Below, one piece after another: positions 31,537 through 63,908 of a stretch of DNA of 64,000 nucleotides. The stretch comes from Paraflavitalea soli. Lineage in GTDB: Bacteria > Bacteroidota > Bacteroidia > Chitinophagales > Chitinophagaceae. Numbering within the stretch: the stretch's first letter is position 1; the number at the start of each line of letters is the position of its first letter. The stretch covers positions 3,724,546-3,788,545 of the forward strand of contig NZ_CP032157.1 in NCBI RefSeq assembly GCF_003555545.1. The letters are read 5' to 3'. The notes under the pieces were generated by a model. It saw nothing but the letters and a program-made list of their open reading frames with translations. It did not search any database and was not told the origin of the DNA. The position numbers and the translations under genes are program-made.

Positions 31537-31618
31537 CCACGAGCCACGAGCTGCGAGCTGCGAGCAAATACAGCAACATGTGCCTAAAAGCTCGTAGCTC
31601 GAAGCTCAAAGCCCGAAG
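31537..31618. repeat. Heptad inverted-repeat element A
   Basis: Left arm: two copies of CCACGAG then two of CTGCGAG (31537-31564), in exact 7-bp register. Spacer 31565-31590. Right arm: CTCGTAG, CTCGAAG, CTCAAAG and CCCGAAG (31591-31618), whose reverse complements follow the same CTNCGAG word. Four heptads face four heptads. It fills the gap between the rsmD stop codon and the bioD start. Confidence 0.85.
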
Positions 31619-31625
31619 CTATTCT

Positions 31626-32165
31626 TTACTTATTTACAAAAATGCTGAAAATAGTGGTTCCGTAGTTGCGGGCAGTAACAAAGAGGGGATAGTTCTCGTA
31701 CTTATTGCGGGGTGTATGTTCCAGTACAAACCAGCCACCAGGCTTCAGCAATTGCCTTTCCACCACTTTTTTGGGCAGCTCATCAATAGTGGTGAGGGCA
31801 TAGGGCGGACCGGCAAATATAAAATCAAACTGTTCGGTGCACTGGTCCAGGAATTTAAACACTTCCATTTTGATGACCTTGAAATTGGTGAGCTTCAGGT
31901 CCTGGGCTGTTTTCTTAATGAACTCATACATCACGGGATCTTTCTCTACGATGGTACAATCTTCGGCGCCGCGGGAAGCCAGTTCATAACTGATGCTGCC
32001 GGTGCCGCCGAATATGTCGAGTGTTTTGAGGGCCTCAAAATCCAGGTTATTCTGCAGGATATTAAAAAGACCTCCTTTGGCAATATCGGTCGTAGGACGT
32101 GTATGCGGCATATTAGCCGGTGGATTGATACGTCGTCCTCCCAATTCGCCACTGATTATACGCAT
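31626..32165 (-). CDS. rsmD: RsmD-type 16S rRNA (guanine-N2) methyltransferase, altered motif IV
   Basis: 179 residues. MRIISGELGGRRINPPANMPHTRPTTDIAKGGLFNIL is the RsmD start. DIFGGTGSISYELASRG binds SAM. Motif IV, normally DPPY or NPPY, reads FAGPPYAL: the Asp/Asn is Gly (codon GGT). This residue normally contacts the target guanine, so activity or specificity may differ. The family methylates G966 of 16S rRNA. It overlaps the DUF3822 gene upstream by 10 bp; the pair is one transcript. Confidence 0.9.
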   Translation of the reverse strand: MRIISGELGGRRINPPANMPHTRPTTDIAKGGLFNILQNNLDFEALKTLDIFGGTGSISYELASRGAEDCTIVEKDPVMYEFIKKTAQDLKLTNFKVIKMEVFKFLDQCTEQFDFIFAGPPYALTTIDELPKKVVERQLLKPGGWFVLEHTPRNKYENYPLFVTARNYGTTIFSIFVNK

Positions 32166-33004
32166 AAGGCCATGTTCAGCAAGGGTGAAAAATAGTGCGC
32201 CGGATAGGACTCAAATGCTTCATGCAGGCGTGAGCTTTCAGTGATTTCCTCCCATTCAAGGTGGAGGAAATACTTGAACAACTCCTGGTACAGGATGGAT
32301 TGCTCATCCAGTAAGCCTGATATTTTCAGTATGACCTGTTCATTGTCAAGATCAAACCTGTTGCACAAGGCCAGCAAATGATAAGATACGTCATCGGGGG
32401 TATCGTACTGGTAGGTTTGTATCAGTTGCAGGGCATGCTTCTTAAACACAGCTACAATGATCCTGTCGGAAGCTACTATCACTTTCAATACGCCATCGCC
32501 GGATGATTCTTTTTCAATACCGGAAAGCATGATGGTATAGTAGTGCCAGTATTTGCCGGCGGCAAATTTGTGCTGCATCAGGGCATGGGCTTCCCGGGGA
32601 ATGCGGTAAATATTATAGACGTTCCAGCCGGGTATCTTTTCGCTCAGCAGCAATCCTTTGTGGGCATTGCCAAAAACCAGTTCGGTCACCGGTTTATTCA
32701 GTTCAATATGAAAGAGTTTTTCCGGCAACAGGTTGCTATCAGTATAATGATAAATAACGAATGCCTCGCGGTAGGAAAGCTGCAACAATTCATCACCGGC
32801 GAGTATCTCCTGCAATGCTTCCATCACCGGCTTGCCAGGCATAAAATCGAGGTTGTATTGACGCAGGCCCATAAAACGCTGCTCCTGCTTGTTGTACAAC
32901 ACATAACTAAAAACCTTTTCACCCACTTCCATGAGTAACAGGCTGTTCTGCATTTCTTCCTGCCGGGCATTTTCCGGAATAATATCAAATGTTGCTTTCA
33001 GCAT
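32156..33004 (-). CDS. DUF3822 family protein
   Basis: Start set at 33004 (MLKATFDIIPENARQEEMQN); the frame extends further upstream, but the added 90 residues are Cys-rich and unlike any protein. 282 residues. It matches the Bacteroidota DUF3822 layout (actin/HSP70-like fold, FHIELNKPVTELVFGNAHKGLLLSEKIPGW...), and DUF3822 is usually next to rsmD. The role is unknown; the linkage suggests rRNA or ribosome work. Confidence 0.85.
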   Translation of the reverse strand: MLKATFDIIPENARQEEMQNSLLLMEVGEKVFSYVLYNKQEQRFMGLRQYNLDFMPGKPVMEALQEILAGDELLQLSYREAFVIYHYTDSNLLPEKLFHIELNKPVTELVFGNAHKGLLLSEKIPGWNVYNIYRIPREAHALMQHKFAAGKYWHYYTIMLSGIEKESSGDGVLKVIVASDRIIVAVFKKHALQLIQTYQYDTPDDVSYHLLALCNRFDLDNEQVILKISGLLDEQSILYQELFKYFLHLEWEEITESSRLHEAFESYPAHYFSPLLNMALCV

Positions 33005-33096
33005 ATTATTTAGAGGTGCAATAATACACGAATTATACCAATTACACGCATGACGGCCTCCTGCAATGTGGGGAGGGCCATTTGCCGGTAATGAAT

Positions 33097-33104
33097 TAAA
33101 TTTG
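33097..33104 (+). promoter_or_regulatory. -7 box upstream of the MATE gene
   Basis: TAAATTTG fits TAnnTTTG, followed by CAGG. It lies 48 bp before the chosen MATE start at 33153. A TTTG at 33081 is closer than the usual -33 spacing. Confidence 0.35.
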
Positions 33105-33152
33105 CAGGTTCTACAACAGCACCATGAGGATTGGGGGGTAGTTAATAAAGTT

Positions 33153-34526
33153 ATGGCCACAGTTATACCGAATGATTTAAGGGTAGAAGTTTCCAACCGA
33201 CAGATACTGAAGATCGCCTTGCCGATCAGCTTTGCATTGCTAGTACCGCAGATCAATTTCATCACCAACAACATTTTCCTGGGGGGCCTGGGGGAACAGG
33301 AACTGGGTACAGCCGGCCTTACGGGGGTATATTACCTCATTTTCGCAGCGATTGGTTTTGGCCTGAACAATGGGTTACAGGCATTGATCGCCCGCCGGGC
33401 AGGGGAAAACCGCGTGGATGAGATCGGAAAGCTGTTTTCGCAAGGAGTACGGATCGCGCTCATCATTGCTGCCATTGGCATTGCGCTTACCTTTTTGGTG
33501 GCGCCCACTATATTGAAGTATTCGCTGCACGATCAAAAGGTATTGCAGCAATCTGTGCACTTCCTGTACATCCGCATCTGGGGCCTGCCCTTCCTGTACA
33601 TCTACCAAATGCGCAATGCCCTGCTGGTAGGCACTAACCAAAGTAAATACCTGGTGATCGGCACGCTGGCGGAAACAATAGCCAATATATTCTTTGATTA
33701 TACATTGATCTATGGCAAACTGGGGTTCCCGGCAATGGGTTTTAACGGGGCAGCTATCGCCTCGGTCATCGCAGAGGCCACGGGCATGCTGGTGGTATTT
33801 GCGGTGATCCATCGCAAAGGGATCAGCAAACGTTTTTCGCTGTACAAGCATTTTGGTTACCAAAAGGATATCTCCAAACTAATACTGGTACAATCTTCTC
33901 CGCTTATTTTCCAACATGCCATCAGTGTGATCAGTTGGATATTCTTCTACATATTGGTAGAGCGACATGGCTATTCACAAGGACATAGTAACCGCGACCT
34001 GGCGATCTCCAATACGATGCGTAACCTCTTCGGCTTTTTTGGGGTATTCACCTGGTCATTTGCGGCTACTACCAATACGATGGTCAGCAATGTGATTGGT
34101 CAGGGCAGGAAGGACCTGGTGATATCACTGGTTCAGAAAATTGTACGCATCAGCTTCTGCATAGCCCTTGTCATCGCCCTATTGCTGAATTTCTTTCCGC
34201 ATGTACTGCTCTCCGTTTATGGACAGGATGCCTCCTTTGTAACAGATGCCATTCCCGTGGTACGGGTGGTTTCGAGCGCCCTGGTGTTGATGTCATTTTC
34301 TACGGTATGGCTGAATGCAGTAACCGGCACAGGCAACTCTACGGTAAACCTGGCCATTGAAGCAGCAGCCATTACGCTCTATTGCTGCTACATTTACCTG
34401 GTACTGGAAGTATTCAAATGGTCCATCACCTGGGGCTGGATGTCGGAATGGCTGTACTGGACTACCTTGTTCTCACTTTCCTACTGGTATATCCGGAGCG
34501 GGAAGTGGAAGAAAAAGGAAATTTAA
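33153..34526 (+). CDS. MATE-family efflux transporter
   Basis: Start set at 33153 (MATVIPNDLRVEVSNRQ); the frame extends upstream to 33066 but those residues are atypical. 457 residues and about 12 membrane segments. ALPISFALLVPQINFITNNIFLGGLGEQ opens the first bundle, and NNGLQALIARRAGENR and WSFAATTNTMVSNVIGQG are the family motifs of each half. It probably exports drugs or metabolites using Na+ or H+. Its 3' end overlaps folB by 4 bp, tail to tail. Confidence 0.9.
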   Translation: MATVIPNDLRVEVSNRQILKIALPISFALLVPQINFITNNIFLGGLGEQELGTAGLTGVYYLIFAAIGFGLNNGLQALIARRAGENRVDEIGKLFSQGVRIALIIAAIGIALTFLVAPTILKYSLHDQKVLQQSVHFLYIRIWGLPFLYIYQMRNALLVGTNQSKYLVIGTLAETIANIFFDYTLIYGKLGFPAMGFNGAAIASVIAEATGMLVVFAVIHRKGISKRFSLYKHFGYQKDISKLILVQSSPLIFQHAISVISWIFFYILVERHGYSQGHSNRDLAISNTMRNLFGFFGVFTWSFAATTNTMVSNVIGQGRKDLVISLVQKIVRISFCIALVIALLLNFFPHVLLSVYGQDASFVTDAIPVVRVVSSALVLMSFSTVWLNAVTGTGNSTVNLAIEAAAITLYCCYIYLVLEVFKWSITWGWMSEWLYWTTLFSLSYWYIRSGKWKKKEI

Positions 34527-34882
34527 ACATCATACTTCTTGTGCATGGTAATGCCCAGCTTGCCCTGGATGTTCTCGATGGGAGGTTCCAACTTGTAGAT
34601 GGAGATGATGATCTCGGTGGAGAAGGGATATTGATGTTTGAGTTTGCGGATAATGCCTTCGGCTACTTTCTCGAGCAAGGGAGTTGCTACCTTCATCCGT
34701 TGTTTTACGATGTCAAATACATCCACATAATTGATGGTATTCTTCAGGTCGTCGAACTTAACGTGGCCCTCATCATACGTTATTTTCAGGCTCACTTCGT
34801 AAAGGCTTCCTGTTTTTTGTTCTCCTTCATAAAGACCGTGATACGCCTGTAACCGAATGTTGTGTAACTCAATCGTAACCAT
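34523..34882 (-). CDS. folB: Dihydroneopterin aldolase
   Basis: Start set at 34882 (MVTIELHNIRLQAYHGLYEGEQ), 119 residues, the standard FolB length. AYHGLYEGE carries the conserved Tyr and Glu; NYVDVFDIVKQRM and VAEGIIRKLKHQYP follow, and KLEPPIENIQGKLG ends the domain with the catalytic Lys region. It cleaves 7,8-dihydroneopterin in folate synthesis. A strong hairpin lies just upstream of the start. Confidence 0.93.
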   Translation of the reverse strand: MVTIELHNIRLQAYHGLYEGEQKTGSLYEVSLKITYDEGHVKFDDLKNTINYVDVFDIVKQRMKVATPLLEKVAEGIIRKLKHQYPFSTEIIISIYKLEPPIENIQGKLGITMHKKYDV

Positions 34883-34890
34883 AAGTGAAA

Positions 34891-34922
34891 TTTGGACCCC
34901 GTCTTTTCGGGACGGGGCCAAA
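34891..34922. terminator. Strong hairpin 9 bp upstream of folB
   Basis: CCCCGTC and GACGGGG (34897-34903, 34911-34917) pair perfectly; TTTGG and CCAAA extend the stem across a one-base bulge. On the minus strand it lies after trxB and directly before folB, followed by ATTTC rather than a clean T-run. It may end the trxB transcript, or fold in the folB leader and limit ribosome access. Confidence 0.45.
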
Positions 34923-34999
34923 TTAGAAAGAAGTAAGGAATTGTAATATTATTTTTTCGGTATCACAGAAAGCATTGTTACCCAAGCGGCCAGGGAGGA

Positions 35000-35938
35000 T
35001 CAGACCAGTCCTTTGGCCGATAAATAACGTTCTGCATCCAGGGCAGCCATACAGCCGCTACCGGCAGCCGTTACAGCCTGGCGGTATATCTTATCCTGCA
35101 CATCACCGGCTGCAAAAACACCTTCTATATTCGTTTTGGAGGTACCGGGAATGGTTTTGATATAACCGGCTTCATCCATATCGATCACTCCTTTAAAGAT
35201 GGTGGAATTGGGCTCATGGCCGATGGCTACAAAGAAACCACTGATGGCAATGGTTTGCTTTTCGCCGGTCTTGATATTCTTAATGCGAACAGCATCTACT
35301 TTGTTCTCGCCCAGCACTTCATCTGTTTCGGTATTCCAATATACTTTGATATTGGGGGTAGCCAGCACCCTGTCCTGCATTACTTTAGAGGCACGCATGG
35401 AATCACGACGCACAAACATATGCACGGTAGAAGCCAGCTTGGACAGGTAAAGGGCTTCCTCGGCAGCTGTATCGCCAGCGCCCACAATGGCTACTTCCTT
35501 GGTGCGGAAGAAAAAGCCATCACATACAGCACAAGCGCTCACCCCAAAACCATTGAGGCGCTCTTCACTTTCCAGGCCCAGCCATTTGGCGGAGGCGCCG
35601 GTAGCAATGATCACGGCATCTGCTTCTACCAGCTTTTCATCATCGATCCACACTTTATAGGGCTGTTGAGAAAAATCAACCTTTGTAGCCAGTCCAAAGC
35701 GAATATCAGCGCCCATGCGGGTAGCCTGCTTTTCGAAATGGATCATCATTTCAGGGCCTTGAACACCATCGGCATAACCCGGATAGTTTTCCACCTCGGT
35801 AGTAATGGTTAATTGACCGCCGGGCTGAATACCCTGGTACAATACGGGCTTCATATTAGCCCGTGCTGCATAGATAGCGGCTGTATATCCTGCCGGTCCG
35901 GATCCTATAATCAAACAATGTACTTTTTCGCTTTCCAT
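35000..35938 (-). CDS. trxB: Thioredoxin-disulfide reductase
   Basis: 312 residues. FAD-binding GSGPAGYTAAIYAARA near the N-terminus, NADPH-binding VGAGDTAAEEALYLSKL, the redox CAVCDG (Cys136 and Cys139) and the C-terminal FAD motif GVFAAGDVQD are all intact. It reduces thioredoxin with NADPH in the cytosol. The C-terminus ends YLSAKGLV. A repeat element (E) occupies its upstream side. Confidence 0.97.
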   Translation of the reverse strand: MESEKVHCLIIGSGPAGYTAAIYAARANMKPVLYQGIQPGGQLTITTEVENYPGYADGVQGPEMMIHFEKQATRMGADIRFGLATKVDFSQQPYKVWIDDEKLVEADAVIIATGASAKWLGLESEERLNGFGVSACAVCDGFFFRTKEVAIVGAGDTAAEEALYLSKLASTVHMFVRRDSMRASKVMQDRVLATPNIKVYWNTETDEVLGENKVDAVRIKNIKTGEKQTIAISGFFVAIGHEPNSTIFKGVIDMDEAGYIKTIPGTSKTNIEGVFAAGDVQDKIYRQAVTAAGSGCMAALDAERYLSAKGLV

Positions 35939-36046
35939 AAATCTGTATTCTTAAAGAAAATTTGACAAAATAACGCCAAAACTGTTAACAATGCGTCAAG
36001 TCAGTTAAGACCTTAATTCACTGTGTATAACCTTGCGTATAGTAAA

Positions 36047-36121
36047 ACAGTTAATCAGTTGAAAAGTTGACAGGGGGTGAGACCACCTTTCAACCCTTTA
36101 ACTTGTCAACCTGTAAACCTA
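36047..36121. repeat. Octad inverted-repeat element E
   Basis: Left arm words ACAGTTAA, TCAGTTGA and AAAGTTGA run in 8-bp register (36047-36070). After a spacer of about 15 bp the right arm has CCTTTCAA, CCCTTTAA, CTTGTCAA and CCTGTAAA (36086-36117). Their reverse complements carry TTGA/TTAA cores like the left arm. It ends at the stop codon of the DUF4249 gene, and it is the only member with an 8-bp word. Confidence 0.7.
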
Positions 36122-37009
36122 TCACCGGGGGATCACCAGGGTAGAATACTGCACGGCGTAGCCGCCAAAATAGCCCAACCCGCCTCCTTGTATATTGCTG
36201 AGCACTTTAACGGGAGAAGAAAAGGGATTGCCAATACTGGTGTAATTGTACTCCATGGTGCGCCAGAAATCGAAGGTTGCTTTGTCAATATTACACAACT
36301 TCACACTCACCACATCGCCCCGGTTGAAGAAGGCATAGTCTTCCAGGTCGATGGACTCATTCCTGTCTACACCATGCTCCACCTGTACCTCATAGGTTTT
36401 CCCATCTACGATCTGGTCATCAAACACGGAATTGAGCCCTGGCAGGAAAGGGTCTCCATTGGACTGGGTAAAATACCGGATATAATTACCAAAACCGGGG
36501 GGATCGGTGGTGCGCCCCATGATAATGACCTTGCCGGTATCGGGATTACTGGGTGCAGGCAGCCACCAAAGAGAATCAAAGGTTTTGGTAAGGTTGGGAA
36601 TGGTAGTTACGGCGGTATATTCTTTCCCACCGGTTTTTACCTGCAGGGAATAGCTTTTGTTGAATTCTCCGGGGAAAGCGGTGGCCAGGTTGGCGGAGTC
36701 GATGGAATAGTAATAGACGGTATAGCCATTATTGGCTGGTAAAGCATATTCTTTGAGGCGGTGGGTCTTGCTGCCATTTGAAATATTGATCTCGGCCTGG
36801 TGAATAAAGGAGGCGGCCAATGAATCGGGTGATATTTTGCTAAAATAATGGAGGCTATGGGAAAGAATGACGATGGGCGGCTGCCCGTTCTCAATAGTGG
36901 CTTCTATCACCACAGCCGGCTCTGCATTGCGGGGTGTAAAAGAAATAGCCTTTTCGCAGGACACCAAGGTTCCTACCAGGAGTATTACCAGTACCAGGCG
37001 CTTGAGCAT
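36122..37009 (-). CDS. DUF4249 family lipoprotein
   Basis: 295 residues. MLKRLVLVILLVGTLVSCEK is a lipoprotein signal with Cys at 18. PRNAEPAVVIEATIENGQPPIVILSHS opens the domain, and beta-rich repeats including YDYAFFN-type EDYAFFNRGDVVSVKL complete it. DUF4249 genes usually stand beside a TonB-dependent receptor; none is adjacent here. It is a cell-surface lipoprotein of unknown ligand. The 3' end abuts repeat element E. Confidence 0.85.
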   Translation of the reverse strand: MLKRLVLVILLVGTLVSCEKAISFTPRNAEPAVVIEATIENGQPPIVILSHSLHYFSKISPDSLAASFIHQAEINISNGSKTHRLKEYALPANNGYTVYYYSIDSANLATAFPGEFNKSYSLQVKTGGKEYTAVTTIPNLTKTFDSLWWLPAPSNPDTGKVIIMGRTTDPPGFGNYIRYFTQSNGDPFLPGLNSVFDDQIVDGKTYEVQVEHGVDRNESIDLEDYAFFNRGDVVSVKLCNIDKATFDFWRTMEYNYTSIGNPFSSPVKVLSNIQGGGLGYFGGYAVQYSTLVIPR

Positions 37010-37040
37010 ACCTTATAAAGATAGAATAGAATGGCAACAA

Positions 37041-37070
37041 AAAACCCGGCTGGCTTTCACCATACCGGGC
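37041..37070 (-). terminator. Terminator after the primary sigma factor gene
   Basis: CCCGG (37045-37049) and CCGGG (37065-37069) pair, with flanking complementary bases (AGC/GCT-type). On the minus strand a T-run of six (TTTTTTG) follows. It lies 25 bp past the sigma factor stop codon and before the DUF4249 start. Confidence 0.7.
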
Positions 37071-37094
37071 TTTTATGTTGATTAACGTACTATA

Positions 37095-37952
37095 CTAACC
37101 TAAATATGCTTTGAGCGCGTTGCTGTAACGGGCTTTCTGTAAACGTTTGATCGCTCTTTCCTTGATCTGACGGATACGTTCTTTGGTAAGATCGTATTTC
37201 TGACCGATCTGCTCAATGGTAACACCATTTTCGCCATCCAGGCCAAAATAAGCGTTTACGATCTCTGCTTCACGGGGGCTGAGGGACTTCAGTACCCGGC
37301 GGATCTCATTGCGCAGGGAGTCTTTCATCACATCATCATCGGTATCATCGCCACCTTCGAGGAGGTCGCCCATGGCCACATCTTCTGCTTCATGCACAGG
37401 GGCATCGAGGGAAGTGTGACGGGTATTGCTCTGGAAAATATTGTTGATCTCGGTTTCGCTCATTTCAAGTAACTCGGCCAGTTCTTCGGTGCTGGGCTCG
37501 CGCTCATGCTCCTGTTCGAAAGCCATATAAGCTTTGTTGGCCTTATTATAAGTTCCGATCTTATTTTGAGGAAGGCGTACGAGACGACCCTGTTCGGCCA
37601 AAGCCTGCAGGATAGACTGACGGATCCACCAAACGGCGTAAGAGATGAATTTAAAACCTTTGGTTTCATCGAAACGCTGAGCAGCTTTGATCAGACCGAG
37701 GTTACCCTCGTTGATCAGATCACTGAGGGATAAGCCCTGGTGTTGATACTGCTTAGCCACGGATACCACGAAACGTAGGTTAGCCTGTACTAACTTATCC
37801 AATGCTTTCTGATCGCCCATCTTGATCCGTTGGGCGAGTACAGTTTCCTCTTCAGGAGTGATCATTGGAATTTTAGAGATTTCCTGCAGATATTTCTCTA
37901 CTGCCTGCGAGTCGCGATTAGTTATCTGGGTAGCAATTTTGAGCTGTCTCAT
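37095..37952 (-). CDS. rpoD: Primary RNA polymerase sigma factor (sigma-70 family)
   Basis: 285 residues: the short Bacteroidota form lacking region 1.1. Region 1.2 (KYLQEISKIPMITPEEE), region 2 (ANLRFVVSVAKQYQHQGLSLSDLINEGNLGLIKAAQRFD, then FKFISYAVWWIRQSILQALAEQ), region 3 and region 4 (LSPREAEIVNAYFGLDG; TIEQIGQKYDLTKERIRQIKERAIKRL) are all present. It directs polymerase to TAnnTTTG/TTTG promoters. A 410-bp spacer with its own -7 box lies upstream. Confidence 0.97.
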   Translation of the reverse strand: MRQLKIATQITNRDSQAVEKYLQEISKIPMITPEEETVLAQRIKMGDQKALDKLVQANLRFVVSVAKQYQHQGLSLSDLINEGNLGLIKAAQRFDETKGFKFISYAVWWIRQSILQALAEQGRLVRLPQNKIGTYNKANKAYMAFEQEHEREPSTEELAELLEMSETEINNIFQSNTRHTSLDAPVHEAEDVAMGDLLEGGDDTDDDVMKDSLRNEIRRVLKSLSPREAEIVNAYFGLDGENGVTIEQIGQKYDLTKERIRQIKERAIKRLQKARYSNALKAYLG

Positions 37953-38310
37953 ATCAAATTTCTAAGTAATAAAATAACTGTTTCAGGGCAGGGTACAGTA
38001 TCAACAATAAATAGACTGAGAAAGTTCAGGGCAGGTTGCAAATCAACTGCAAATGAGCTGTTAATGTGTCCGATCCGTCCAGAACCGTCTGCAAAAATAA
38101 CACGCAATCCCGAAATCTCATAGCTTTTGTGGATAAAAACAAAGCTGTGGAGGGTATACTTCGGATTGAATGTCAGCACAAACGATTGTCCATAGGGGGT
38201 GATAGTAAGCTGTAATCTGCGCCAACACTACTATAGACGCCGTAACTATTCAATTCCTGTGCGCAATAAAAAAAGCTCAAATTAATTGTGGATAACCCTT
38301 AAAAAAAGAT
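37953..38310. other. Upstream region of the sigma factor gene
   Basis: About 360 bp between divergent genes. It contains a -7 box at 38092-38099 for the sigma gene and no convincing reading frame; the rest shows nothing recognisable. Confidence 0.5.
38092..38099 (-). promoter_or_regulatory. -7 box for the primary sigma factor
   Basis: TATTTTTG on the minus strand fits TAnnTTTG, 140 bp before the start codon, giving a leader of roughly 130 nt. A matching -33 TTTG is not evident. Confidence 0.4.
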
Positions 38311-38362
38311 TTTGTAACTAAGAAAATAGTTATAGATTTGGGGTACAACTAAATTCTTAGTT
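38311..38362 (+). promoter_or_regulatory. blaI-like promoter with two repressor dyads
   Basis: TTTG at 38311 and TAGATTTG at 38333-38340 are separated by 18 bp, a good fit to the Bacteroidota -33/-7 arrangement. Dyad 1, TAACTA-6 bp-TAGTTA (38315-38332), fills the spacer; dyad 2, AACTAA-4 bp-TTAGTT (38347-38362), covers the presumed start site and ends at the ATG. The layout suggests autorepression by the encoded BlaI-like protein. Confidence 0.7.
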
Positions 38363-38731
38363 ATGAAACCACTCACCAAAGCAGAAGAACAGGTTATGCT
38401 GGTCGTATGGGACCTGGGCCAGGGCTTTTTAAAGGACATTATGGAGCATATCCCGGAACCAAAGCCCCATTCCAATACGGTGGCTACGCTGTTAAAAATC
38501 CTGATAGAGAAAGAGTTTGTGGAATATGAGGTGCAGGGCCGTAATAACCTGTACAAACCCAGGGTGAGTAAGGCGGCTTATGGCCAGAAAAGTGTTAACC
38601 AGCTGGTGAAGGGATATTTTGAAGGTTCTCCCGCAAAGCTCGTGTCGCAATTTGTGAGTGACAACAAACTGAGCCAGGAAGAGCTGCAAAAACTGCTGGA
38701 ACAGATCAAAAACGCCCAAAACAACCAATAA
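38363..38731 (+). CDS. BlaI/MecI-family transcriptional repressor
   Basis: 122 residues. A winged helix (LTKAEEQVMLVVWDLGQGFLKDIMEHI ... HSNTVATLLKILIEKEFVEYE) matches BlaI/MecI/CopY. The C-terminal part (SVNQLVKGYFEGSPAKLVSQFV) is the dimerisation region. It likely binds the two dyads just upstream and represses itself and the downstream M56 genes. In known systems an M56 sensor peptidase triggers cleavage of the repressor. Confidence 0.92.
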   Translation: MKPLTKAEEQVMLVVWDLGQGFLKDIMEHIPEPKPHSNTVATLLKILIEKEFVEYEVQGRNNLYKPRVSKAAYGQKSVNQLVKGYFEGSPAKLVSQFVSDNKLSQEELQKLLEQIKNAQNNQ

Positions 38732-38747
38732 CCCCAAAACAACCAAT

Positions 38748-43643: not shown

Positions 43644-44873
43644 CTAAAATATGATCTCTTCACCGGCGGTCCTGAGTACCAGTTCTTTTTTGGTACCGGC
43701 CTCTACCCTACCCACGATCTTTGCTTCAATGCCCAGGGCTTCTGCCGCTTGTATTATCGCGGCGGCAGATGCTTCTGGCGTAAATACTTCGAGGCGGTGG
43801 CCCATATTGAATACCTGGTACATTTCGCGCAGGTCGCTGCCGGAAGCTTTTTGAATGATCTTGAATATCACCGGTGGTTCAAACAAGTTGTCCTTTACAA
43901 TGCGGAAATCACCGGGCAGGTATTTCATGCATTTGGTTTGCCCGCCGCCACTGCAATGGATCAACCCATGAATGGCATCAAAATGCTTGTTGAACAATTC
44001 TTTTAGCAAAGGAGCATAAGTACGGGTGGGACTTAACAAGAGCTGGCCAATCGTAAGCTGCGAGCTCCCGCTATGGCGGGACAAGTTGTGAGTTGTGAGC
44101 TGCGAGCCAGCCTCCAGGTCGTAACCTGCATCTTTTAAAGAATCGGTCATTTTGTGTGGCCCGATATAGACCACCTCATCACTCAATGAGTTTTCGTATG
44201 ATTCCTTGAATTGCTGTGCATAGAATTTGCCGAGCACATCGTGCCGGGCGCTGGTAAGGCCATTACTGCCAATACCGCTGTTGTAAGTGGTTTCATAAAC
44301 GGCTTGTCCATAGCTGGCAAAACCTACAATCACATCACCAGGCTGGATCTTTTCGTTGGTCACCAGTTGTTGTTTGGGCCAGCGGGCAGTCATGGTTCCA
44401 TTTACTGCAATGGTGCGCACCACGTCGCCTACATCGGCAGTCTCTCCGCCCAGGAAATGGATATTGACACCGTATTGTTTTAATTCATCAAAGAATTCCT
44501 GTGTGCCATTGATGATCACTTCCAGCACTTCACCTGGTACGCGCGATTTATTGCGGTCGATGGTAGAGGAGAAAAGCAGGTTATCGTGAATACCTACACA
44601 AAGCAGGTCATCGAGGTTCATTACAATGGCATCCTGGGCAATGCCTTTCCAAACGGAAATATCGCCCGTTTCCTTCCAGTAGAGATAAGCCAGGATACTT
44701 TTGGTACCGGCGCCATCGGCGTGCATCAGGTTGACTGCATTGTTATCGCCCGTGAGGTAATCGGGGTATATTTTGCAAAAAGCGTAGGGATATAAACCCT
44801 TATCCAGTTTCTCGGTAGCCTTGTGAACTTCTTCTTTCTGAGCAGACACGCCCCGCTGTGAATATAAACTCAT
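43644..44873 (-). CDS. purM: Phosphoribosylformylglycinamidine cyclo-ligase (AIR synthetase) with an in-frame insertion
   Basis: 409 residues. LYPYAFCKIYPDYLTGDNNAVNLMHADGAGTKSILAYLYW, FLGGETADVGD and YGQAVYETTYNSGIGSNGLTSARHDVLG are AIRS motifs, and HCSGGGQTKCMKYL lies in the C-terminal ATP-grasp-like half. The enzyme makes AIR from FGAM in purine synthesis. Residues about 256-275, SQLTTHNLSRHSGSSQLTI, are encoded by a heptad repeat element (B) and split an otherwise continuous YDLEAG...GQLLLSPTRTYAP block. The enzyme probably tolerates it, but that is unproven. Confidence 0.93.
   Translation of the reverse strand: MSLYSQRGVSAQKEEVHKATEKLDKGLYPYAFCKIYPDYLTGDNNAVNLMHADGAGTKSILAYLYWKETGDISVWKGIAQDAIVMNLDDLLCVGIHDNLLFSSTIDRNKSRVPGEVLEVIINGTQEFFDELKQYGVNIHFLGGETADVGDVVRTIAVNGTMTARWPKQQLVTNEKIQPGDVIVGFASYGQAVYETTYNSGIGSNGLTSARHDVLGKFYAQQFKESYENSLSDEVVYIGPHKMTDSLKDAGYDLEAGSQLTTHNLSRHSGSSQLTIGQLLLSPTRTYAPLLKELFNKHFDAIHGLIHCSGGGQTKCMKYLPGDFRIVKDNLFEPPVIFKIIQKASGSDLREMYQVFNMGHRLEVFTPEASAAAIIQAAEALGIEAKIVGRVEAGTKKELVLRTAGEEIIF
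44051..44107. repeat. Heptad repeat element B inside purM
   Basis: Plus-strand words TCGTAAG, CTGCGAG (44051-44064), a hairpin core TCCCGC-TATG-GCGGGA (44066-44081), then two TTGTGAG and one CTGCGAG (44086-44106), all in 7-bp register on each side. The CTGCGAG word is also the word of element A. Confidence 0.8.
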
Positions 44874-44892: not shown

Positions 44893-45013
44893 AAGTCCGG
44901 AAGTTGGAAAAGTCCGAGAGTCGGAAAGCTGAAAATACAGGCCTGGAAAGCGTGAAAAGTCCGGGCTTACGGCCTTTCAGACTATGGAATTTCCGGACTT
45001 TCAGAGTATTTTC
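44893..45013. repeat. Degenerate heptad inverted-repeat element D
   Basis: Words such as AAGTCCG, AAGTTGG, GAGAGTC and GGAAAGC run along 44893-44936 with slips in register. The right side carries inverse words (CCTTTCA, TTTCCGGACTTTCAG) at 44973-45006, and GTGAAAAGTCC sits between. It fills the whole gap between divergent purM and ribF. Confidence 0.55.
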
Positions 45014-45024
45014 GCACCGCATTT

Positions 45025-46020
45025 ATGAAAGTTTACCATTCTACAGACAATATACCTGCCTTTAACCGGGCGGTGCTCACCATAGGTACATTCGACGGGG
45101 TACACCTGGGGCATTGGCAAATACTGGAGCAATTACAGGAAGAAGCCCGGCGGATAGGCGGAGAAACGGTCATTATCACGTTCCATCCGCACCCCCGCAA
45201 AGTGGTTTCGGCTGAACAGCCTGCTTTTCACCTGCTCAATACGATTGAGGAAAGGATTGAATTGCTGGAAAAATGTGGTATTGATCACCTGGTGATCGTA
45301 CCCTTTACCGCTGATTTTGCGCAGCAGACGCCGGAGGCCTATATAGAGCATTTTTTGATAGAAAAGTTCCATCCGCATACGATCATCATCGGATACGACC
45401 ACCGCTTTGGACAGGGCCGTACAGGCAATTATAAACTATTGGAAGTCTATAGCGCGCGTTCAGGCTTCCGGCTAATGGAGATACCGCCGCATGTCATTGA
45501 CGAGAATACAGTGAGCTCTACACGCATCAGGCAGGCCATCCTGGAAAGCCGGATCGAACAGGCCAATAGCTTACTGGGCTATGATTTCTTTTTCGAAGGC
45601 ACGGTAGTGGAAGGTAATAAACTGGGCAGGGTGTTGGGCTATCCCACCGCCAACCTGCGCATGGAAAACGAGGAAAAACTGGTACCGGGCAATGGCATCT
45701 ATGTGGTGGAAGCGGAGATCATGGATCGTGAATCGGCAATCGGCAATCGGCAATCTTTTGATTCGCCGATCGCTCTCCCGGGAACCATCAAAGGCATGAT
45801 GAGCATCGGCATACGACCTACTATCACGGATAACAGGCGAACCATCGAGGTAAACCTGTTTGACTTCAATACCAACATCTATGGACGTACGCTTCGGGTA
45901 TACGTAAAGAAATACCTGCGGGCGGAAGAAAAGTTTGATGGCCTGGAAGCACTGAAGGAGCAACTGGCCAAAGACAAGGAAGACACGCTTCATTATTTTG
46001 GCCTTAATTCATCATCTTAG
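45025..46020 (+). CDS. ribF: Bifunctional riboflavin kinase/FMN adenylyltransferase with a repeat-derived insertion
   Basis: 331 residues. LTIGTFDGVHLGHWQIL holds the nucleotidyltransferase HxGH motif; IIGYDHRFGQGRTGN and STRIRQAIL follow. The flavokinase half has GRVLGYPTANLRMENE and RPTITDNRRTIEVNLFDFN. It makes FMN and FAD. Residues about 234-250 (DRESAIGNRQSFDSPIA) come from heptad element C and lie between two conserved strands. The 3' end overlaps holA by 17 bp, tail to tail. Confidence 0.96.
   Translation: MKVYHSTDNIPAFNRAVLTIGTFDGVHLGHWQILEQLQEEARRIGGETVIITFHPHPRKVVSAEQPAFHLLNTIEERIELLEKCGIDHLVIVPFTADFAQQTPEAYIEHFLIEKFHPHTIIIGYDHRFGQGRTGNYKLLEVYSARSGFRLMEIPPHVIDENTVSSTRIRQAILESRIEQANSLLGYDFFFEGTVVEGNKLGRVLGYPTANLRMENEEKLVPGNGIYVVEAEIMDRESAIGNRQSFDSPIALPGTIKGMMSIGIRPTITDNRRTIEVNLFDFNTNIYGRTLRVYVKKYLRAEEKFDGLEALKEQLAKDKEDTLHYFGLNSSS
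45724..45772. repeat. Heptad inverted-repeat element C inside ribF
   Basis: AATCGGC is repeated three times in exact 7-bp register (45731-45751), preceded by GATCGTG and followed by AATCTTT. The nearby GATTCGCCGATCG (45760-45772) is its imperfect reverse complement (GCCGATT core). Confidence 0.75.
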
Positions 46021-54447: not shown

Positions 54448-54468
54448 TTACAACTAAATTTCAGGGCG

Positions 54469-56003: not shown

Positions 56004-56039
56004 TTGAACTGTTGAATAAGCAATAGCTTCCAAAACGAA

Positions 56040-56075
56040 GGGGCTGTATCAAATGATCGATACAGCCCCTTTTTA
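56040..56075 (+). terminator. Rho-independent terminator after the ZU5-like gene
   Basis: GGGGCTGTATC (56040-56050) pairs with GATACAGCCCC (56059-56069), an 11-bp perfect stem, followed by six T. A run of A on the other side lets it serve the convergent peptidase gene too. Confidence 0.85.
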
Positions 56076-56106
56076 TTCAGTTAAACCTTGATTGATCTTT
56101 TCCGAC

Positions 56107-58248: not shown

Positions 58249-58323
58249 GCAGCAGATGTTTAGTTGTGCTGAAAATACTCATTCTGAGGCGATTGGTACA
58301 ACCATTGGTGTAAAGGGTGAAAA

Positions 58324-58809
58324 TTATTCTGCTTCGGCCAGGAGGCCTTGCACATCGAGGTGCTCTGTCACCATCTGCAGCTCGCCGGCAGCATCCAACG
58401 GCCATAGCTCTTTTGGTTTATCCCAATAGAGCTCTACCCCATTGCCATCAGGATCATCGAGGTAAATGGCTTCTGAGACGCCGTGGTCCGACATACCGGT
58501 CAATGGATATTGTGCCCCTATAAGCCTTTTAAGGATAATAGCCAGGTCCTTACGGGTCGGATACAGGATCGCCGTATGAAACAGGCCCGGCGCTTTTTGA
58601 GGCGCCGGAGGCGCATTGCGACTGTACCAGGTATTGAGGCCAATATGGTGGTGGTAACCGCCGGCAGAGATAAAAACTGCCTGGGAACCATAGCGTTGCA
58701 TTACTTCAAAGCCCAGCAGGTCGCGGTAAAAGGCCAGCGACTTGTCCAGGTCCGACACCTTGAGGTGTACATGCCCGATGCGGGTTTGAGAAGGTACTTT
58801 ATATTCCAT
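58324..58809 (-). CDS. VOC-family (glyoxalase/dioxygenase superfamily) protein
   Basis: Start set at 58809 (MEYKVPSQTRIGHVHLKVSDLDKSLAFYRDLLGF); 161 residues. Metal-ligand positions show in HVHLKV, HHIGLNTW (His), LFHTAIL and GVELYWDKP (Glu). The chain resembles catechol-2,3-dioxygenase-like or glyoxalase-fold proteins. It lies 75 bp downstream of the S9 gene's start on the same strand. Confidence 0.85.
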   Translation of the reverse strand: MEYKVPSQTRIGHVHLKVSDLDKSLAFYRDLLGFEVMQRYGSQAVFISAGGYHHHIGLNTWYSRNAPPAPQKAPGLFHTAILYPTRKDLAIILKRLIGAQYPLTGMSDHGVSEAIYLDDPDGNGVELYWDKPKELWPLDAAGELQMVTEHLDVQGLLAEAE

Positions 58810-58851
58810 CAGGTAAATTAACAACAATTGAGGAGCAAAGGTTGAAAAGAG

Positions 58852-58886
58852 GTGTTAGCTGTTAGGGGTAAGGTATTAGCTTTTAG
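58852..58886. repeat. Heptad repeat element G, one arm, next to a tRNA fragment
   Basis: Five words in exact 7-bp register: GTGTTAG, CTGTTAG, GGGTAAG, GTATTAG and CTTTTAG, consensus NTNTTAG. No inverted arm is seen. It ends 10 bp before the tRNA-Lys 3' fragment, in the space where the tRNA's 5' half would be. Confidence 0.7.
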
Positions 58887-58896
58887 CAAGGGGCGC

Positions 58897-58944
58897 CCTG
58901 ACTCTTAATCAGTAGGTACTGGATTCGAGTCCCAGGGGGCACCA
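58897..58944 (+). pseudogene. 3' half of a tRNA-Lys (CTT) gene, 5' half missing
   Basis: The anticodon arm CCTGA-CTCTTAA-TCAGT (anticodon CTT at 58904-58906), variable loop AGGTA and T arm CTGGA-TTCGAGT-CCCAG (one A:C mismatch at the loop end) are readable, followed by GGGGC and ACCA. The acceptor 5' strand and D arm are absent upstream. It looks like a truncated tRNA or the residue of an integration site at a tRNA 3' end. Confidence 0.6.
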
Positions 58945-58961
58945 ACTCAGAACATAGAACA

Positions 58962-58989
58962 CAAAAAAAACCGGCCATTCAGCCGGTTT
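58962..58989 (-). terminator. Rho-independent terminator after sdhB
   Basis: AACCGGC pairs with GCCGGTT around a 6-nt loop. On the minus strand it is followed by a run of eight T, 26 bp after the sdhB stop. Confidence 0.85.
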
Positions 58990-59014
58990 AAAATGATCTA
59001 TAAGCCAATGAAAC

Positions 59015-59779
59015 TTACTTATCGATGGTGAGGCCAGCCCGCAGGTATTCGCTGTTGAGGCGGGCGATATTGCTGATGGATATCTCTTTGGGACATACGG
59101 CTTCGCAGGCGCCGGTATTGGTACAACCACCAAATCCTTCTTTGTCCATTTGAGCGATCATGTTCAACGCACGGTCCTTACGTTCAGGATCACCTTGGGG
59201 CAGTAAAGCCAGGTGACTTACTTTGGCTGATAAGAATAAGCTGGCAGAGCTGTTCTTACAAGCTGCTACGCAGGCGCCGCAACCGATACAGGCTGCATTG
59301 GCAAATGCCAGATCGGCCTTGTCTTTTTCAATGGGAATGGCATTGGCATCCACTGGGTTACCGGTATTTACGGAGATATAACCACCCGCCTGGATGATGC
59401 GGTCAAAAGCGGTACGGTCTACCATCAGGTCTTTGATCACGGGGAAGGCTTTTGCCCTCCAGGGTTCTACCACGATGGTATCGCCATCTTTATAGGCCCG
59501 CATGTGCAGCTGGCAGGTAGTGTTGGCTTGCCAGGGACCATGTGGACGACCATCAATATACATAGAGCAGGCGCCGCAAATCCCTTCCCGGCAATCATGG
59601 TCAAAAGTGATGGGATCTTTCCCTTCCCGAATAAGTTCTTCGTTGAGGACGTCGAACATCTCCAGAAAGGACATTTCCGACGAAACATTTTTCACCTGGT
59701 AGGTTTCAAATTGTCCCCTGTCATCCTTATTCTTTTGTCTCCAGACCTTGAGGGTCAGATTCATGTTATAATGCTCCAT
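59015..59779 (-). CDS. sdhB: Succinate dehydrogenase/fumarate reductase iron-sulfur subunit
   Basis: 254 residues. The [2Fe-2S] ligands lie in [19 protein letters not shown]...C, the [4Fe-4S] motif is [17 protein letters not shown], and the [3Fe-4S] motif is [15 protein letters not shown]. It passes electrons from SdhA to the membrane subunit. A second ATG at 59764 (MNLTLKVW) could be the start. It closes the sdhC-A-B operon, 40 bp after sdhA. Confidence 0.97.
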
Positions 59780-59819
59780 AGTATATTATTAAGTACCGGG
59801 TATAATTGTCTTTGCTTGA

Positions 59820-61793
59820 TTATTTATAAGAACGTTGAGTTGGCTTGGCCACTTCAAATTCCAAATTCTCTTTGTGCAACTCCCACTGGCTATCGGCTTT
59901 GTATTCCCAGGCAGCCACGTACTGGAAGTTGTTGTCATCGCGCAGTGCTTCCCCTTCGTCGGTTTGTGATTCTTCGCGGAAGTGACCACCACAGCTTTCT
60001 CTGCGGTTGAGTGCATCTTTACACATCAGCTCACCTAGTTCAATAAAGTCAGCTACGCGGTTGGCTTTATCCAGCTCGGGATTCATTTCATTGATGATAC
60101 CGGGGATGCGTACATCGCTCCAGAACTCTTTCTTGAGTTGTTGTATTTCTACAATGGCTTCCTGGAGACCTTTTTCATTGCGGGCCATGCCACACTTCTC
60201 CCACATGATCTTACCGAGGCGTTTATGGAAACTTTCCACGGTTTGCTTTCCTTTAATGCCCATCAGTTTTTCAATGCGGGCCTTCACTGCATTTTCTGTT
60301 TCTACAAAAGCAGCATCAGTAGTGGGAATCGCTTTGGTGCGGATCTCATCGGCCAGGTAGTTACCAATGGTATAAGGAATTACAAAATATCCATCAGCCA
60401 ATCCCTGCATCAGGGCAGAAGCGCCCAGGCGGTTCGCACCGTGGTCGCTGAAGTTAGCCTCACCCAGGCAATATAAACCAGGTACAGTGGTCATCAGTTC
60501 ATAATCCACCCACAAGCCACCCATGGTATAGTGCACGGCAGGATAAATACGCATGGGTATTTGGTAGGGATTCTCACCGGTGATCTTTTCGTACATATCG
60601 AAGAGATTACCATATTTCTCTTTCACCACGGCAACACCATGCTTACGTACGGTTGCTGCATCGGGATTGTTGATACCCAGTTTGCGGCATTCTATCTTTC
60701 CATAACGTTCAATAGCATCTGCATAATCGAGGTATACGGCCTGCTTGGAAGTTCCTACGCCATATCCTGCATCACAACGTTCTTTGGCGGCCCGGGAAGC
60801 TACGTCACGGGGTACCAGGTTACCGAAGGCCGGGTATCTTCTTTCGAGGTAGTAATCTCTTTCTTCTTCCGGAATTTCATCGGCCCGGCGGCTATCGCCT
60901 TTTTGTTTGGGCACCCAGATACGACCGTCATTACGCAAGCTTTCGGACATGAGGGTCAGCTTGGACTGGTGATCACCACTTACAGGTATGCAGGTGGGGT
61001 GGATCTGTGTATAGCAGGGGTTACCAAAAAATGCGCCTTTCACGTGGGCTTTCCAGGCAGCGGTTACATTGCTGCCCATGGCATTGGTAGAGAGGTAGAA
61101 AACGTTGCCATAACCACCGGTACACAGTAATACGGCATGACCAAAATGGCGCTGCAGCTCACCGGTGATGAGGTCGCGGGCAATGATGCCTCTGGCCTTG
61201 CCGTCGATCTTTACAATATCCAGCATTTCATGGCGGGAGTATTGTATTACGTTGCCCAACGCTACCTGACGCTCCAAAGCCTGGTAAGCGCCTATGAGTA
61301 ATTGCTGACCGGTTTGACCGGCAGCATAAAAAGTTCTTTGTACCTGTGTACCGCCGAATGAACGGTTGCTGAGCAAACCACCATATTCGCGGGCAAAGGG
61401 AACCCCCTGGGCCACGCATTGATCAATAATATTGGCGCTCACTTCGGCCAGGCGATGCACATTCCCTTCACGGGCGCGGTAGTCACCACCTTTTACGGTA
61501 TCATAAAACAAACGGAAAACGGAGTCGCCATCATTCTGATAGTTCTTGGCTGCATTGATACCGCCTTGTGCAGCAATGGAGTGCGCCCTGCGGGGAGAAT
61601 CCTGGAAGCAAAAGGTTTTTACTTTATAACCCAGCTCACCGAGTGCTGCCGCTGCCGAAGCTCCGGCCAATCCAGTACCTATAATAATGATCTCCAGATT
61701 ACGCTTATTGGCTGGATTTACCAGCTTGCAATGACCTTTATAATCTGTCCACTTGGTTTCTAAAGGACCGGCAGGAATTTTTGAATTCAACAT
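59820..61793 (-). CDS. sdhA: Succinate dehydrogenase/fumarate reductase flavoprotein subunit
   Basis: 657 residues. FAD-binding [19 protein letters not shown], then [17 protein letters not shown] with the His that carries FAD covalently. The catalytic region [30 protein letters not shown] and [17 protein letters not shown] are conserved. It oxidises succinate to fumarate, or the reverse, at the cytoplasmic face. It is second in sdhC-A-B. Confidence 0.97.
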
Positions 61794-61854
61794 ATAACCA
61801 GTTTATGGTTTTTAATTTATCCGGAGCAGGTCTCCGGAATAACTTTTTGTTTGC

Positions 61855-62559
61855 TTAGTTCTGTAAACCTACCCACTGAAAATGCATGCTGATGGGCATC
61901 AGGGCGAAGATCAATGGGATCAGGATAGAAAATCCAAGACCTAAGCCATTGATGAGGGCCAGGTAACGCTTGTTGTATACGCCCAGGGTCCTGAAAGCAC
62001 TCTGGAAACCATGTGCCAGGTGATAAGCCAGGGAAATACATCCCAGTATATACAGGATCACAATGAAAGGGTTCTCAAATACCAGGGCCATTTTACCAAA
62101 CAGGTCATGGTGCTCAGGATTATAAGAAGCTTCGGGCAAACCCGTAATGCGGGAAGGTACCCAGAAATGGGAAATGTGCATGATCAGGAACAACAACAAC
62201 AAGGTGCCCAGCAAGCCCATGGAGCGGCTGTACCATTTGCTGCCTTTGTTGCCCATAGTCTTTTGGTATCCTACGCCACGGCGGCTGCGATTCTGGAATT
62301 CCACCATAAATCCCTGTACCACGTGCAGGATGATAAACGCAAACAGGCCAATTTCTGCGGCACGGATCACCCAGCTTGATCCCATAAAATGAGCTGCCCG
62401 GTTAAACATTTCACCATCATCGGTGGGATCAAACAGGTCGGCAAAAATGCAGGCATTGATCCCCGCATGGACCACCAGGAAGGTGATCAGAAAAATACCT
62501 GTTAAACTCATTACCAGTTTTTTGCCGATCGAGGACGTAAAGAAGGCAGACCATTTCAT
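61855..62559 (-). CDS. sdhC: Succinate dehydrogenase cytochrome b subunit, single-subunit type
   Basis: 234 residues with five membrane segments (KLVMSLTGIFLITFLVVHAGIN first). Conserved His residues in VHAGIN, HVVQGF, HISHFW, HHDLFG and HLAHGF are suited to two haems, as in type B complexes that use menaquinone. No sdhD is present, as expected for this type. It is first in the operon, with a -7 box upstream. Confidence 0.95.
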   Translation of the reverse strand: MKWSAFFTSSIGKKLVMSLTGIFLITFLVVHAGINACIFADLFDPTDDGEMFNRAAHFMGSSWVIRAAEIGLFAFIILHVVQGFMVEFQNRSRRGVGYQKTMGNKGSKWYSRSMGLLGTLLLLFLIMHISHFWVPSRITGLPEASYNPEHHDLFGKMALVFENPFIVILYILGCISLAYHLAHGFQSAFRTLGVYNKRYLALINGLGLGFSILIPLIFALMPISMHFQWVGLQN

Positions 62560-62904
62560 TGGTTAGTATTTATGATTCTTGGCAAGTCTCAGGATGAGCT
62601 AAAGTCTTCATCGTGAGGTAAATTGATCTATTCGACTGATTTCGACGCAAAAATAACGCAGCAATGTGAAATATCATATTTCGGTAAAAAATTTCCTGAT
62701 ATATATACATTTCTTTGCAACATTTCGTTACACCATGTGGCGATTACACAATTGTTGGTTGGAGGTAATATATAACACTGCTATTATGGCACATCAACCA
62801 GCCGCCATTTACCTCATTTATCCCATCCATTCAGAACGCACTTTAGATTGTACTTCTTGCACTTATTGTAAAATACCTATCTTAGCCCCCTTAAAATCGA
62901 CCTA
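62560..62904. other. Divergent promoter region between sdhC and accD
   Basis: 345 bp. The sdh side carries a TATTTTTG box (62648-62655). The accD side is AT-rich with a loose TATCTTAG box near 62876-62883. A 79-residue frame at 62666-62905 has no family features. Confidence 0.5.
62648..62655 (-). promoter_or_regulatory. -7 box for the sdhCAB operon
   Basis: TATTTTTG on the minus strand fits TAnnTTTG and gives a leader of about 80 nt before sdhC. No clear -33 partner. Confidence 0.4.
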
Positions 62905-63816
62905 ATGAAGCAAGAAGAGGATTTTGAGGCCAATCTGGCAGGAGAAGAAGGACAAAGTGAAGAGACAAAAAGCAGTTGGTTCAAAAGGATCAAGAAGGGG
63001 ATTCTCACCAGTACCGCCGAAAAAAAAGAAACACCTGAAGGACTCTGGAGCAAATGCCCGGAATGCGGTTATATATGTACAGTAACGGAGCTCCGGGAGA
63101 ATATTTTTGTTTGTCCCAAATGCAATTACCATCACCGTATTGGCAGTTCAGAGTATTTCGACATCATTTTTGATGAAGACCAGTACGAAATTCTCTATGA
63201 GAACATCCGTTCCAAAGATTTCCTGCACTTTACGGACCTGAAATCATACGACAAACGCCTGCAGGAAACCTGGGCCAAAACGGATATTACAGACTCTATC
63301 CGCGTAGCCAGGGGCACGGTGAAGTCATTGGACATGGTGATCGGCTGTATGGATTTTGAATTCATTGGCGGTTCGCTGGGCAGTGTAATGGGTGAACGTA
63401 TCTCCCGGGCTGCCGACTTGTGCCTGGAGCATCGCATCCCGCTGATGATCATTTGTAAATCGGGTGGCGCGCGGATGATGGAAAGCGCTTTTTCGTTGAT
63501 GCAACTGGCCAAGGTATCGGGTAAGCTATCGCAACTTACCGATGCCGGTATTCCTTATATCTCTTTACTGACGGACCCCTCCTTCGGAGGTATTTCAGCT
63601 TCCTTTGGTATGCTGGGCGATCTGAATATCGCAGAACCAGGGGCCCTCATAGGTTTTGCCGGTCCCCGGGTAATCAAGGAAACGATCAAAAAAGACCTGC
63701 CGGAAGGTTTCCAACGCAGTGAATTCCTGCTGGAACATGGTTTCCTCGATTTCATTGTGCACCGCAAAGAGTTAAAAGATAAACTGGCTACTGTACTTTC
63801 ATTGTTTAAAAACTAA
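62905..63816 (+). CDS. accD: Acetyl-CoA carboxylase carboxyltransferase subunit beta
   Basis: 303 residues. After a charged head, the zinc ribbon CPECGYICTVTELRENIFVCPKC carries four Cys. The crotonase-fold core has GSLGSVMGERI, CKSGGARMMESAFSLMQLAK and ISLLTDPSFGGISASFGMLGD. With AccA it transfers CO2 from carboxybiotin to acetyl-CoA. The stop codon is followed at once by repeat element F. Confidence 0.97.
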   Translation: MKQEEDFEANLAGEEGQSEETKSSWFKRIKKGILTSTAEKKETPEGLWSKCPECGYICTVTELRENIFVCPKCNYHHRIGSSEYFDIIFDEDQYEILYENIRSKDFLHFTDLKSYDKRLQETWAKTDITDSIRVARGTVKSLDMVIGCMDFEFIGGSLGSVMGERISRAADLCLEHRIPLMIICKSGGARMMESAFSLMQLAKVSGKLSQLTDAGIPYISLLTDPSFGGISASFGMLGDLNIAEPGALIGFAGPRVIKETIKKDLPEGFQRSEFLLEHGFLDFIVHRKELKDKLATVLSLFKN

Positions 63817-63823
63817 AAGAATA

Positions 63824-63908
63824 TTAGAATATAGAATTTAGTATATAGAATTCAGAAGGGCGCCCCGTGCTGGTACCCGGATTCTATATACAGAATTCTG
63901 ACTTCTGG
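63824..63908. repeat. Heptad inverted-repeat element F
   Basis: Left arm: TTAGAAT, ATAGAAT, TTAGTAT, ATAGAAT and TCAGAAG in exact 7-bp register (63824-63858). Spacer 63859-63880 is GC-rich. Right arm: ATTCTAT, ATACAGA, ATTCTGA and CTTCTGG (63881-63908), the inverse words. It fills the gap between accD and smpB. Confidence 0.85.

Follow-up and report, generated by a model that had tools for sequence, protein, structure and literature searches.

Heptameric tandem arrays dispersed in the Paraflavitalea soli genome share words and are oriented with local GC skew

We analyze seven loci in a 64,000-nt stretch of the Paraflavitalea soli genome (hereafter, the window; GCF_003555545.1, NZ_CP032157.1, positions 3,724,546-3,788,545), at each of which a short word, usually of 7 bp, is repeated in tandem. 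Such arrays recur across the genome (one contig of 8,443,189 bp), about once every 13 kb of a 2.0-Mb sample, and their orientation is regionally coherent across unrelated words, tracking local GC skew and not gene direction. The explanation that we favor, and to which we give an even chance of being right, is that the loci are dispersed heptameric (occasionally octameric) tandem arrays generated by slippage together with strand-dependent, replication-coupled copying. Broadly, they belong with the heptamer repeats reported from Xanthomonas, Nostoc, Geobacter, and Beggiatoaceae.

Heptamer repeats rank with the most common in bacteria but also with the most poorly explained. Arrays of several words, with an orientation that tracks the strand and a word that changes at a kept site, make their origin testable, since writing coupled to replication carries predictions for orientation, step size, and the sharing of words. 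The in-frame copies in FAD and purine enzymes described below mean that arrays also add protein sequence.

Census of arrays and word families

Arrays were scored as matches out of 21 at period 7, with a strict cut of 17, a second cut of 16, and a cut of 15 for rescoring the seven window loci. A first sample of 1.6 Mb served for the census of periods and a larger one of 2.0 Mb for word families. The first sample contains 75 period-7 arrays at the strict cut and 128 at 16/21, against 1 and 2 in one order-4 Markov control sequence. The corresponding counts are 0 and 0 for period 5, 2 and 16 for period 6, and 15 and 26 for period 8 (control, 0 and 1), and this 7-base excess over other short periods is the one that characterizes heptamer long simple-sequence repeats. 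The original prediction, made from the window alone, had named a comparison of genome counts with a composition control as its first refuting test; at 128 vs 2, the counts lie far above the control.

It had also proposed a different word at each locus, which is not what we find. Of 150 arrays in 2.0 Mb, seven word families account for 129 (21 are unclassified), and the window loci 31537 and 44051 both belong to the AGCTCG family. The families include TGCCGAY (word A), ATTCTGT, AGCTCGN, AGCTAAN, and AAACCCG, each with several near-fixed positions and one or two variable ones. Among the seven consensus words, only AAACCCG (read as CGGGTTT) has a three-base run; judged from the words alone, a G-quadruplex reading was rejected for want of a G-tract. 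A common A-Y-T word grammar, sought by eye, was dropped because neither the AGCTCG nor the AGCTAA family conforms to it, and local spread of words was dropped because the words are not clustered. Another dispersed repeat, TTTCGAACGCAGCGCAGCGNAGTGAGAAATCTGCTATCGAAGCAAA, often adjoins arrays, e.g., near 92,692 and 7,932,694.

Three consecutive copies of TGCCGAY match at 99 places genome-wide, and the reversed control at none. Among 117 genomes of the family, our own included, word A occurs in 4 of the 116 others (12, 3, 1, and 1 matches); it has no match in the sole other congener of that sample, and the congener G002 carries it in its RibF loop. Sparse matches are spread over many phyla among the matches listed. 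Judged by these sequence matches, the vocabulary appears to be lineage-specific, not strictly private. Heptamer arrays with other words, some facing inverse arrays, were seen at loci L203, L207, L232, and L260, on Bacteroidetes, Planctomycetota, Desulfococcaceae, and Chloroflexi-type contigs.

Orientation and GC skew

Family labels and the “+” orientation were fixed after inspection of the 6.0-6.4 and 7.6-8.0 Mb blocks, and the tests were repeated without those blocks. Arrays of different families agree in orientation in 37/40 pairs within 20 kb, 66/77 within 50 kb, and 103/139 within 100 kb; pairs under any one distance limit depend on one another, so that binomial values are rough. Outside the label-setting blocks, agreement within 20 kb is 24/27. 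Where the 40-kb GC skew is ≤ 0, 77 arrays are plus and 14 minus; where it is > 0, 11 are plus and 27 minus (p = 1.7e-9). The link persists at 5 to 40 kb. It is also present for single arrays alone (56/8 and 7/20), in held-out blocks (21/11 and 9/27, p = 0.0013), and in a label-free test (odds ratio 6.75 vs 1.84 for random windows), and by family it is significant for words A, B, and C. Local gene direction has no significant link with orientation in four blocks (p = 0.14 and 0.098). G-rich strands are in general leading strands, and for this reason we infer a link between array orientation and replication.

Anatomy of facing pairs

Inverted pairs do occur, although to call the arrays mostly inverted, as originally proposed, is too strong genome-wide: 91/129 classified arrays have no second classified array within 300 bp. 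Words are inverse in 15 of 36 neighbor pairs at ≤ 200 bp (null, 11%) and direct in 8. The G-richer arm lies on the left in 29 of the 36 and on the right in 6, with one tie, and on the left in 14/15 inverse pairs. Pairs in relatives are biased the same way (10 left vs 1 right). So is a multi-phylum set of at least 117 loci (77 vs 33; inverse pairs alone, only 23 vs 12), which was picked by its TGCCGAY arrays, so that its period-7 excess is not a survey of phyla. By family labels, 12/22 pairs are of mixed orientation, and all 12 read minus then plus.

The module CGAAGCAAA occurs, at a distance of up to 80 bp, on the inner flank of 29/129 arrays and on the outer flank of 0/129; CTTGTCCCGC lies within the same distance on the inner side of 6 arrays and the outer side of none. 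The confinement of CGAAGCAAA to inner flanks points to copying. The alternative, that slippage on local sequence gave rise to each array independently and nothing was copied between loci, would draw on the report that in many genomes no long simple repeats are commoner than heptamers (Mrazek 2007, as related in PMC4679880) and on the similar arrays in loci of many phyla. Against it stand the inner module common to many arrays and the share of arrays that fall into just seven families, and we consider it very unlikely.

The seven loci of the window

Short-period repetition is present at all seven loci, as predicted, and its quality is unequal. Only four (31537, 44051, 45724, and 63824) pass the period-7 cut of 15/21, and 58852 falls just under it at 14/21. 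The 8-bp word foreseen at one locus is real, with period 8 in both arms of 36047, whereas 44893 passes neither the period-7 nor the period-8 cut and is visible only as a period-17 row of Tandem Repeats Finder. At the strict cut, the window holds 3 period-7 arrays vs 0 in five order-2 Markov sequences. The loci and the two genes that carry in-frame arrays are as follows.

31533..31624, no strand: inverted AGCTCG-family pair, left CACGAGC/CTGCGAG, right AGCTCGN, in a gap between two open reading frames (ORFs)
36047..36124, no strand: octamer-period pair GTTAATCAGTTGAAAAGTTGAC ... TCAACCCTTTAACTTGTCAACC, period 8, 18 and 17 of 24
43644..44873, minus strand: PurM-like AIR synthase gene, in-frame insertion at residues 247-272
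44049..44141, no strand: array material of the AGCTCG family with an inner hairpin, CCCGCTATGGCGGGACAAG, inserted in the reading frame of the PurM-like gene
44893..45010, no strand: AAGTCCG-type repeats and inverse arm, in the divergent gap separating the PurM-like gene from ribF
45025..46020, plus strand: ribF (FAD synthetase / riboflavin kinase), with the array in frame near residues 231-254
45727..45775, no strand: AATCGGC array and its partial inverse, GATTCGCCGATCGC, within the ribF reading frame
58846..58963, no strand: net 113-bp insertion with a TTAGCTN-type array and a tRNA-Lys 3'-half-like fragment
63818..63912, no strand: inverted AGAATAT / ATTCTGT arrays flanking a GGGCGCCCC spacer

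Fold-back is strong at 31537 (z = -5.84), 63824 (z = -4.39), and 44893 (z = -3.87), weak at 36047 (z = -2.24) and 45724 (z = -2.20), and not significant at 44051 (z = -0.67) and 58852 (z = -1.17). A structured RNA was considered and rejected, with 0 Rfam matches at the gathering score in window positions 31000-64000. The spacers at 58888 and 63856, which belong to unrelated loci, start alike (GGGCGCCC).

Within the insertion at 58852, which we call recent, positions 58891-58943 resemble the 3' half of a tRNA-Lys(CTT) and end in CCA. The only related tRNA-Lys gene found (~3,811,896, minus strand) has no encoded CCA and differs at further bases. This fragment bears on one route that the original prediction had allowed, reverse-transcribed or RNA-templated addition of words from a guide, as do two RVT_1 ORFs in the genome. 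The fragment, however, differs from the tRNA-Lys gene at no fewer than two bases and has a shorter acceptor arm, and no template was found; we regard a guide as highly improbable. A retro-copied tRNA as the origin of the fragment was likewise set aside, since the fragment has diverged despite its possible CCA.

Arrays inside two enzyme genes

A RibF match is present in 57/59 genomes, and we inspected by eye the loop preceding GMM.IG in 19 of the 30 cut loci that fit the search expression. Arrays occur in 6 of the 19, 5 of them confirmed by period score, and their words differ: GGCAATC in our genome and G002, GTTTCCA in G017, GGAAGTC then CAGACCT in G004, GGGAGTC then CATTCAA in G028, and GGGAATT then ATTCACC in G031. 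Loops are long in a solved RibF too, and the loop therefore tolerates length. In the PurM-like protein, the insertion comprises 26 residues opposite 4 of chain 3kiz, and its site is 93 bp long here vs 21 bp in G004.

Rickettsia palindromic elements, which are homologous, palindrome-like, and ~100-150 bp long, are also kept in frame within protein genes. Two genes here likewise carry in-frame insertions, but all that the arrays here have in common with one another is the heptad plan; the long homology that links those elements is not seen.

Turnover in related genomes

Orthology was tried for 10 elements of our genome and 8 of the congener G004, of which 6 and 5 could be mapped; among the 6, AAAGAGA was left uncounted as a stretch of low complexity. 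Comparison of orthologous gaps with G004, a check of the kind that the original prediction had proposed, reveals gain, loss, and word change. The arrays at genome positions 3,722,078 and 3,768,625 (window locus 44051) are absent from G004, its gap orthologous to 36047 holds no array, and its array at 530,792 has no counterpart in our genome. The 58852 insertion is missing from both G004 and G001, and the ortholog of 31537 in G006 is a short gap without an array.

At two orthologous sites, 31537 and the RibF loop, G004 carries another word. Both arms differ at 31537 (CACGAGC...GCTCGAA in the window, GGCTAGT...CTTGCCA in G004), so that the predicted constancy of period and layout under a changing word is borne out there, as it is by the differing RibF loop words. 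The repeat at 44893 has period 7 in G004 and nearly period 8 here, and at 63824 G004 keeps the word family with a different spacer.

The load varies among relatives: we count 6 arrays in 140 kb sampled of G004, 7 in 100 kb of G031, 6 in 40 kb of G028, 3 in 60 kb of G017, and 8 in 100 kb of G008, and none in the 140, 120, and 100 kb sampled of G001, G003, and G006. This distribution bears on a mobile-element account, in which a non-autonomous element of the repetitive extragenic palindromic or bacterial interspersed mosaic type (REP/BIME) is moved on single-stranded DNA by a Y1 transposase like the REP-associated tyrosine transposases (RAYT), giving a strand bias. The genome has two Y1_Tnp ORFs, both near array-like sequence and the first with the CGAAGCAAA module, and the orientation bias is compatible with a single-stranded target. 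Y1_Tnp is, however, present in 9/10 genomes, and no correlation with arrays appears in the sequence sampled: G001, G003, and G006 have it although their 360 kb yielded no array, and G028 lacks it yet has its 6. RAYT was set aside as the probable mover on this ground, and beyond the partial inner module no constant element was found. We give the mobile-element account a slim chance.

Genomic placement

With home-made gene calls, 90/108 elements are intergenic vs ~15 expected, and 18/108 lie inside called genes. In 58 co-directional gaps, elements sit a median of 24.5 bp after the upstream stop and 66.5 bp ahead of the next start, and divergent gaps are under-used (15 elements vs 26.1 expected). 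These positions are what one would look for if the arrays were selected regulatory sites, either 3'-end hairpins (terminators or mRNA stabilizers) whose hairpin is kept while the word drifts, or arrayed regulator-binding sites as proposed for Geobacter. The stable folds at 3/7 window loci point the same way, as do other hairpins at the place of 63824 in G001 and G003. Yet the majority of classified arrays lack a classified partner, elements do occur in divergent gaps and in genes (two window loci lie within enzymes), the word at one site varies between genomes, and orientation ignores gene direction. We consider selected regulatory sites unlikely.

Proposed origin

Under slippage and replication-coupled copying, arrays would lengthen, shorten, and homogenize in 7-base steps, and an array with its inner module, such as CGAAGCAAA, would be written to new sites by a process coupled to replication, for which microhomology template switching and single-strand insertion at the fork are candidate routes. 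Copying at the fork would fix orientation by strand, and a facing pair would arise when a second copy enters in the opposite orientation. With fast turnover, a site compared between related genomes would then have gained or lost its array or changed its word, and arrays would persist where hairpins and length changes are tolerated, namely downstream of genes and in the loops of proteins. No function specific to the sequence need be assumed. The copying process of the original prediction survives in this form, as a replication-linked origin fits the strand result; its reverse-transcribed guide does not, as we found no evidence for one.

Several observations weigh against this explanation, besides the non-independence of pairs noted above. 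We identified no donor, enzyme, or target duplication in these data. Base-for-base mirror arms are not seen: in 15 pairs, an arm matches its own partner at 0.73 and similar-word arms elsewhere at 0.67, and with so small a difference a mirror made separately at every locus, as had been supposed, is not required. Unit similarity declines with distance (5.43, 5.20, 4.91, and 4.68 of 7), which degenerate array edges could explain, and adjacent C/T choices in word A agree at 0.43 vs 0.505 by chance, a misfit with simple neighbor duplication. The link with skew is absent for word D (p = 0.62). A replichore rule drawn from word A (p = 3e-5 by halves, with a flip at ~3.87 Mb and near 0) was dropped because words B and D disobey the halves (p = 1), and we replaced it with the claim of regional coherence and GC skew. 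Skew taken at a shift of 60-190 kb within a block still agrees for 46-73% of single arrays (mean 60%) vs 84% observed, so that the signal is regional. The position of the origin is only weakly inferred from block skews, dnaA at 7.47 Mb, and minus-strand 16S genes at 4.95 Mb.

A bolder version, which we think decidedly unlikely, is that a trans-acting, strand-specific process at the fork adds a 7-base word from a lineage vocabulary, and that a given permissive site, such as one loop of RibF, receives different words in different lineages. If so, the orientation of arrays would preserve, even through inversions, the direction in which forks once moved.

Relation to published repeats

The original prediction could name no described element of this form, but the architecture is already in print: Xanthomonas has inverted pairs of heptamer arrays (PMC4692102), and Geobacter has arrays of 7/8-mers in pairs (PMC2700814). 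Rehm et al. (2015, PMC4692102) describe GGGAATC in Xanthomonas and GGGGA(C/T)T in Nostoc, heptamers with variable positions and few units per array, as here. The Xanthomonas repeats also lie mostly between genes, closer to the ORF that precedes them (mean 28 nt vs our median of 24.5), form facing inverted pairs (70 and 75 cases in two genomes), often occupy orthologous sites, and have convergent G-rich arms, a trait shared by the inverse pairs here. The Xanthomonas word, however, is a single one of G-quadruplex type vs several words here, mostly without a GGG tract, and no leading or lagging preference is reported for it, whereas orientation here follows GC skew.

Geobacter metallireducens (2009, PMC2700814) has, like P. 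soli, several words per genome, units of 7 or 8, and opposite-strand pairs at variable distance, and its GGACCGG elements lie both within and between genes. Its classes 1-3 were named “global regulator binding sites,” predicted to be protein-binding sites or RNA elements, and insertion sequences lie near some class 1 sites. The TAACTGA repeats of Beggiatoaceae, Cyanobacteria, and some Bacteroidetes (MacGregor 2015, PMC4679880) are likewise intergenic heptamer arrays, phylogenetically patchy and absent from some close relatives. Unlike ours, they have a single word, with 169 direct sets and one indirect in the Guaymas genome, and mostly stand right before start codons. Our literature search returned no report of skew-tracking orientation or of word change at one site, which does not prove that there is none, and the cited portions of these papers yielded none of a left G-richer arm, an inner-side CGAAGCAAA, or in-frame arrays in RibF or a PurM-like enzyme.

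Other repeats

A separate period-11 class (GTAAACTTGAA, CCGTAGATCAG, CTCTATAAGAG, and others) numbers 21 at the strict cut in 1.6 Mb, e.g., at 6,231,188 and 7,785,409. Within the window, positions 1553-2037 contain 60- and 90-base tandem repeats in a stretch of coding length.

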